Shown here: positions 53,037 to 53,757 of the stretch, piece after piece | How positions within the stretch are numbered: the first letter of the stretch is position 1 | Layout: each line of letters starts with the position of its first letter | Assembly (NCBI GenBank): GCA_013112585.1 | Contig: JABFGH010000011.1 | Coordinates: forward strand, 1-64,000 | Source: Ignavibacteriota bacterium | GTDB lineage: Bacteria > Bacteroidota > Ignavibacteria > Ignavibacteriales > Melioribacteraceae | DNA length: 64,000 bases | Direction of reading: 5' to 3' | The notes under the pieces: generated by a model | Told to the model about the DNA's origin: nothing | The model's database searches: none | The model's input: only the letters and a program-made list of their open reading frames with translations | Program-made: the position numbers and the translations under genes

Positions 53037-53049
53037 TATTAAAAACGTA

Positions 53050-53153
53050 GAGACGTTCGTAAGAACGTCTCAAATCCATTCATTCTACATCGATTTCCTT
53101 TTCAAATTTCACGATTTATTTTTACTTGGAGACGTTTTGCCAAACGTCTCTAC
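53050..53153. repeat. Two REP-like hairpins beside the transposase gene
   Basis: GAGACGTTC-GTAA-GAACGTCTC lies at 53050-53071 and GAGACGTTT-TGCC-AAACGTCTC at 53129-53150. Both arms begin GAGACG and both are preceded or followed by GTA/TAC, as in the palindrome inside the transposase gene at 53380-53407. The transposase's stop codon (53150-53152) lies at the edge of the second hairpin. A degenerate copy (GAGACGTTAT...GTCGCTAC) lies at about 53696-53721 on the 5' side. Confidence 0.8.
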
Positions 53154-53677
53154 AGTAAATCCTCACAAATATTTTCATTCTTGTCTTTATCTATTTCCCA
53201 ACTCAACGGGTTTTGCTCAATGTACTTTCTAATTCTGAAGAGTTCTTTTTCATCACGAATTATTCTATCATAAAACCTAGACTGCCATGCAAAATTTTTG
53301 TGTCCATTTTCGCGAATACTTTTTGTTACTGCAGATTTAAAGGAGCCGACAATGTTTGATAGTGAATTTGTACTTTTGGGTAGAGACGGGGCATGCCCCG
53401 TCTCTACGGGATTTAATATAATTATCCCATGAACATGATTCGGCATTATTACATGATAATCCAATTCAGCGAGCTTATAATGCTTTGGAATGTTTTTCCA
53501 AATGTCTTCACAAACTAATCCCAAGCTATTCAATTTCATTTTTCCATCAACTATTTCCCCAAAATATTCCTTGTGATCTTTTGTGTTGATTGTTATATAA
53601 TACCACCAAGCGGATGAGTAATCCCAGCCTTTTAATCTTGCTGATGTTGTGCGGTATTTGTTTTTGTATTTGGGCAT
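53150..53677 (-). CDS. REP-associated tyrosine transposase (RAYT; IS200-like Y1 family)
   Basis: 175 aa. Y1 transposase fold: YYITINTKDHKEYFG (first strand), the HUH motif in YHVIMPNHVHGIIIL (HVH) and the catalytic Tyr in RIRKYIEQNPLSW. RAYTs are single-copy domesticated relatives of IS200 transposases that move short palindromes. Exactly such palindromes flank this gene at both ends and one lies inside it, read in frame as PVETGHAPSLPK just after the HUH motif. Whether the insert disturbs the enzyme is unknown; it lies in a loop where other RAYTs vary in length. The stop codon falls inside a flanking hairpin. Confidence 0.92.
   Translation of the reverse strand: MPKYKNKYRTTSARLKGWDYSSAWWYYITINTKDHKEYFGEIVDGKMKLNSLGLVCEDIWKNIPKHYKLAELDYHVIMPNHVHGIIILNPVETGHAPSLPKSTNSLSNIVGSFKSAVTKSIRENGHKNFAWQSRFYDRIIRDEKELFRIRKYIEQNPLSWEIDKDKNENICEDLL
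53380..53407. repeat. Perfect 28-bp palindrome inside the transposase gene
   Basis: GTAGAGACGGGGCA at 53380-53393 is continued by its exact reverse complement to 53407. It belongs to the same family as the flanking REP-like hairpins (GTAGAGACG start) but has different inner bases, so it has diverged while both arms stayed complementary. It keeps the reading frame of the transposase open. Confidence 0.85.
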
Positions 53678-53757
53678 TTTGCAATCGTTGTTTTTGAGAC
53701 GTTATTCCGAAAGTCGCTACTTGTTTTTATAGTCTATCAAATTATAAGTGCCGTTTT

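Follow-up and report, generated by a model that had tools for sequence, protein, structure and literature searches.

REPs inserted within tnpAREP genes with the reading frame left intact were described by Quentin et al. (2018) as unique to TnpAREP subclass 2.4 (PMC6006769). These insertions generally lie between the HuH and Y motifs, in a peripheral variable region, and comprise canonical long as well as double-foot REPs (PMC6006769). In the part of Di Nocera et al. (2013) considered here, GTAG REPs are reported often to supply TAG stop codons and also to lie inside ORFs, where they are translated (PMC3733652); the genes concerned are mainly DNA repair and other genes, and neither the RAYT loop nor T9SS sorting domains are singled out in that part. 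It also covers the Rickettsia palindromic elements (RPE), which are palindromic repeats kept in frame in proteins like the hairpin described below (PMC3733652), but which belong to another phylum and to other target genes, and not to their own transposase. The best PDB match of the protein studied here, by profile and by fold, is the TnpAREP of E. coli (PDB 4er8), a member of subclass 2.2 with the motifs DHLH, WE and YIHYNP and with no such loop insertion reported.

The window, i.e. the whole 64-kb stretch of DNA that was analysed, contains a RAYT (Y1/HUH REP-associated transposase) gene whose features are listed in Table 1. The 175-aa ORF gave a match to Y1_Tnp of 24.4 bits (cut-off 23) and matched NCBIfam REP_Tyr_transpos with 58.8 bits, which is under the cut-off of 80 for this family. 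A profile built from 34 homologues matched 4er8 with E=5.7e-8, and 4er8_A, a RAYT bound to a REP hairpin, was the top structural match of the AlphaFold2 model of the window protein (mean pLDDT 88). H81, H83, W131, Y152 and N156 are invariant among the 34 homologues, and Q132 is nearly so. Fold and HUH/Y chemistry are like those of the E. coli enzyme, whereas the motifs differ, being NHVH, WQ and YIEQNP in the window protein. The features of IS200/IS605 TnpA proteins (subclass 1.1), namely the motif Y[IV]ENQ and near-identical genomic copies, were not observed: no near-identical copy of the window protein was found in the genome, the other matches being weak or partial (E of at least 2.4e-7) and those of full-length type 34–37% identical. 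On both sides of the gene lie GTAG REPs of a type found again elsewhere in the genome, as is expected of a RAYT.

Table 1. Features of the RAYT locus, in positions of the window.
Feature	Position	Strand	Remarks
RAYT / TnpAREP gene	53150-53677	-	175 aa + stop; Y1_Tnp, REP_Tyr_transpos, PDB 4er8 by profile and fold
HUH motif NHVH, residues 80-83	53429-53440	-	H81 and H83 invariant in 34 homologues
Y motif YIEQNP, predicted catalytic Y152	53207-53224	-	Y152 and N156 invariant
Hypervariable loop, HUH strand (81-88) to helix 106-123	53372-53410	-	6-108 aa long among homologues
Intragenic double-foot REP, perfect 28-bp palindrome	53380-53407	.	encodes VETGHAPSL and first base of P
Downstream single-foot REP; GTAG foot supplies TAG stop	53129-53153	-	
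Second downstream REP, inverted relative to 53129-53153 (REP dimer)	53047-53071	+	
Decayed upstream REP	53696-53720	-	differs from the REP pattern of the genome by 3 mismatches; does not fold stably

An original prediction, made from the DNA letters, had placed a perfect 28-bp palindrome in frame inside this gene, and this was confirmed. The sequence GTAGAGACGGGGCATGCCCCGTCTCTAC consists of two perfectly matching arms (14+14) and is the sole even palindrome of at least 22 nt that a scan of the whole 64-kb window returned. It is read as GTA GAG ACG GGG CAT GCC CCG TCT CTA C, encoding VETGHAPSL(P), it has the GTAG...CTAC double-foot form, and its single-stranded DNA fold has an energy of -12.8 kcal/mol (z -7.3). 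The palindrome lies in the segment that links the HUH strand to the helix following it, where the AlphaFold2 model is less confident (pLDDT about 65 at residues 91–100 compared with 84–98 around them).

Likeness to subclass 2.4 includes the in-frame double-foot REP between HuH and Y, the flanking REPs, the WQ pair (W131, Q132), the motif NH[IFV]H (here NHVH) and the long variable beta3-alphaC loop (PMC6006769). In the Y motif, YIEQNP agrees with the YIxNNP of the subclass in Y, I, N and P, while the fourth residue is Q (PMC6006769). A further difference is that the intragenic and the flanking REPs of the window are of different types. Subclass 2.4 as published accounts for the finding, the gene being putatively assigned to it by motifs and loop features compared with the published description. 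Both halves of the finding, the in-frame REP in a RAYT gene and the TAG stop supplied by a REP, are of kinds already published, and with the precedents of Quentin et al. (2018) and Di Nocera et al. (2013) the window gene is a further case rather than a new kind. What goes beyond these descriptions and raises the finding above routine is a hairpin unlike the present flanking REPs, its conservation at the level of codons and a second coding home for REPs.

The flanking REPs carry the GAGACG arm, as had been predicted, although the upstream one is decayed. Pattern searches of the window's own genome (4.94 Mb, here G000) found REPs of the GAGACG type GAGACGTTYGGNARAACGTCTC, with up to 3 mismatches, at 15 places besides the intragenic one, of which 3 flank the RAYT gene and 12 lie elsewhere. 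The original prediction had also put the stop codon inside a REP hairpin. It does lie on a hairpin, since the TAG at 53150-53152 is the TAG of a GTAG foot, but it is positioned at the foot and not inside the stem. A stop of this sort was rejected as a peculiarity of this RAYT family, being found in 3 of the 54 homologues in which a hairpin was detected and already described by Di Nocera et al. (2013) (PMC3733652).

The intragenic palindrome and the flanking REPs have GTAGAGACG in common and differ in their centres (GGGCATGCCC versus TTYGNNARAA). The 22-nt intragenic core GAGACGGGGCATGCCCCGTCTC has no second copy in the 4.94-Mb genome at up to 3 mismatches. As this core occurs only in the gene and the GAGACGTTYGGNARAACGTCTC type at 15 places, the two kinds agree in the foot and at the beginning of the stem and not in the centre. 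With an identity of 0.55 between them, different types and no other genomic copy of the core, the intragenic REP is not supported as a recent copy of a present flanking REP. Nor is there support for a recent event in which this enzyme would have copied the substrate it has now into the gene, the intragenic type being also common to homologues in at least seven other genomes. The window's hairpin is probably older than the flanking REPs now present; its unlikeness to them and its presence in these homologues imply either that it is older than this genome or that it arrived by another route.

Homologues at E<=1e-10 are encoded in 31 of the 58 genomes searched, the window's own genome counted. 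When 56 homologous genes were scanned for strong palindromes, taken as those scoring at least 10, the density was 6.84/kb in the loop, defined as the region from the HUH strand to the next helix, as compared with 0.64/kb in the upstream and 0.66/kb in the downstream flanks; the rest of the genes holds 2 strong palindromes in 26 kb (0.08/kb). A 28-nt loop REP is recognisable in 28 homologues and perfect in 17 of them. By simple arithmetic, a palindrome such as that of the window is expected about 528 x 4^-14 = 2e-6 times in a gene of this kind; with the loop enrichment and 28 homologues carrying a 28-nt REP at the same loop, we reject a palindrome that arose by chance, the probability of which we consider negligible. 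The reading phases of the 28 loop REPs are distributed 23/5/0, and the absent phase is that in which GTAG would place its TAG in frame as a stop codon, a pattern consistent with selection for insertions that can be read through. REP-free homologues also exist, with loops mostly of 6–13 aa, so the view that the REP is tolerated as protein sequence in the loop proved right. The REP-bearing loops contain many different palindromes, and homologues with different loop residues have both palindrome arms changed: over all pairs of loop REPs, which are not independent, 1,623 arm differences were complementary on both arms and 330 one-sided. Within the gene, REPs accumulate at this loop alone, in open phases and with co-varying arms. 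Just one of the 56 homologous genes (L090, G027:C29) has its REP-like palindrome towards the N-terminus of the RAYT and not in the loop. Another candidate obtained by pattern match (L118, G137) was rejected as an intragenic REP because the palindrome lies just upstream of the gene. The loop of one further RAYT (L055, G049:C1 about 559000) holds a tandem array VETGHVVETGHAVETGHA... of half-REP repeats with an identical REP next downstream, and it looks as if a hairpin had expanded as a coding repeat.

RAYTs handle single-stranded GTAG-footed hairpins. Our preferred reading, which we hold with considerable confidence, is that the gene is a RAYT of the TnpAREP subclass 2.4 kind with a translated double-foot REP in a surface loop, the REP having been placed there by RAYT activity and its hairpin being retained or renewed as DNA. 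Single-strand activity of the RAYT would have delivered REPs to this gene lineage, with survival limited to those copies that fell into the loop in an open reading phase, the loop presumably accommodating extra residues as the low model confidence at residues 91–100 suggests. The hairpin would then be kept, or renewed, because it is a present or former cognate site of the enzyme, and the encoded peptide would merely be tolerated. The length of 28 nt is not divisible by 3, so the insertion, an event that we infer, must have been accompanied by a gain or loss of further bases. For the window itself, the different types of the intragenic and flanking REPs and the missing second genomic copy leave cognacy conjectural.

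How a loop REP could stay perfect without selection would be explained by repeated replacement from the genomic REP pool, by transposition or gene conversion. Intragenic REPs are in fact closer to the flanking REPs of their own gene than to those of other genes (0.74 versus 0.54, n=16; no value this high in 10,000 permutations), the window's REP being an exception; for 5 of the 16, a REP beside the same gene is identical at 90% or more of positions, and one loop REP (L063) has many genomic copies in its genome, G009. On the other side, searches allowing one mismatch gave a single copy of the window's type in each of G000, G009, G012, G106, G135 and G139, and hence no present donor in these six genomes, and some REP types follow the gene tree. 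REP presence clusters on this tree (9 changes versus 14.7 after shuffling), and TCGCCGCGGCGA in L072/L036 and GACGAAAATTTTCGTC in L052/L060 are clade-linked types; around the window gene the tree is poorly resolved. Such replacement without selection is a tentative alternative, which we rate at somewhat more than one chance in three, behind the preferred reading.

Retention of the hairpin as DNA is addressed by the codons. The window's REP type is present in 17 of the 164 genomes of the order and, among the places examined, has its home in the RAYT loop in G000, G009, G012, G042, G106, G135, G139 and G113. Seven of these genes, whose proteins are about 50–70% identical when the REP is left aside, were compared; where residues agree, their codons agree too in 90% of cases in the REP and in 54% outside it, in pairs that are not independent and of which many are not significant alone; the same residues written with different codons were thus not the rule among the homologues. 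We read this codon conservation as a likely constraint on a DNA (or RNA) hairpin, or as a trace of past renewal. Neutral template-switch correction, in which one arm is copied from the other during replication, would keep the palindrome without any selection on the hairpin; it is a known process at quasi-palindromes, and the predominance of two-sided complementary differences is what it would produce. It preserves pairing and not sequence, however, whereas one and the same 22-nt core is found in several homologues in which synonymous sites elsewhere agree hardly more than codon usage predicts, and we regard this explanation as unlikely. Selection of the peptide itself, with the palindrome as a by-product, would agree with VETGHAPSL being identical in the seven homologues; it is hard to reconcile with the identical codons, several of which (GAG, ACG and CTA) are rare in these genes, and with other homologues having VETRRGESL, VETHRDASL, VGTTHELSL or no insert at this position. 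We consider it very improbable.

REPs of the same genome were also observed in a different protein context. One loop of T9SS type-A sorting domains contains, in frame, several other REPs of G000, in the arrangement ...NPFNPTTKIKFTIPGS[VETFGKTSQV]QLKVYDILGNEI..., at C2:99296 (L124), C7:40475 (L128), C9:105875 (L133), C12:63227 (L138) and C6 about 198797 (L101), and TIGR04183 was confirmed for two of these domains. Sorting-domain REPs of relatives were seen at L153, L161-L164, part of L168-L176, L205-L210 and L216-L218. The loop follows the pattern IP[xVET....SL]..LKVYD, each genome having its own REP type, and REP-free sorting domains have about 4 residues at the loop position. Among 46 examined places of the GGGGCATGCCCC type, a non-random subset of 69 with a few of a close variant included, 13 are in the sorting-domain loop and 8 in the RAYT loop, while 1 (L202) is in another, second loop of the sorting domain; all six GGGGCATGCCCC REPs of G029 are in the sorting-domain loop. 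When one place was taken from each of 17 genomes, the GGGATATATCCC type was found in 3 RAYT loops and 2 sorting domains, and G030 has 8 copies of this type in sorting domains. As G000 encodes at least 150 sorting domains, the loop makes up a very small part of the genome, by our own estimate below 0.1%.

REPs may have reached the sorting domains by repeated insertion or by copying of the domains. The flanks of REP-bearing domains resemble each other more than those of REP-free ones, clearly in G030 (0.80 versus 0.54) and slightly in G029 (0.60 versus 0.52), the REP-free controls being the best Pfam scorers and not a random sample. No report connecting T9SS with REPs or palindromic repeats was found in the collection of open-access papers searched, and within it this home of REPs appears unreported. 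We rate it an even chance that REP hairpins have two recurrent, always in-frame coding homes, the RAYT loop after the HUH strand and the T9SS type-A loop IP[xVETGHAPSL]QxxLKVYD, the second unreported, where they would be conserved as DNA, so that transposase substrates would be long-term sequence-constrained elements inside proteins. From the copies in sorting domains it would seem that protein loops can originate from mobile hairpins. Enzyme–substrate pairs with the substrate inside the enzyme's own gene and differing between homologues form a tractable set, through which REP specificity, target choice and co-evolution could be approached with the hairpin separable from the peptide.

The second sorting-domain loop, FN[VETRHASSL]PSGVYFY, also holds a REP-encoded peptide, in L178 and L179 of G001 and in L202 of G113, and L178 and L179 each have two REPs in one sorting domain. 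At G000:C7:38869 (L132), an intact sorting domain is followed by what looks like a second, decayed one, and a REP lies in the latter.
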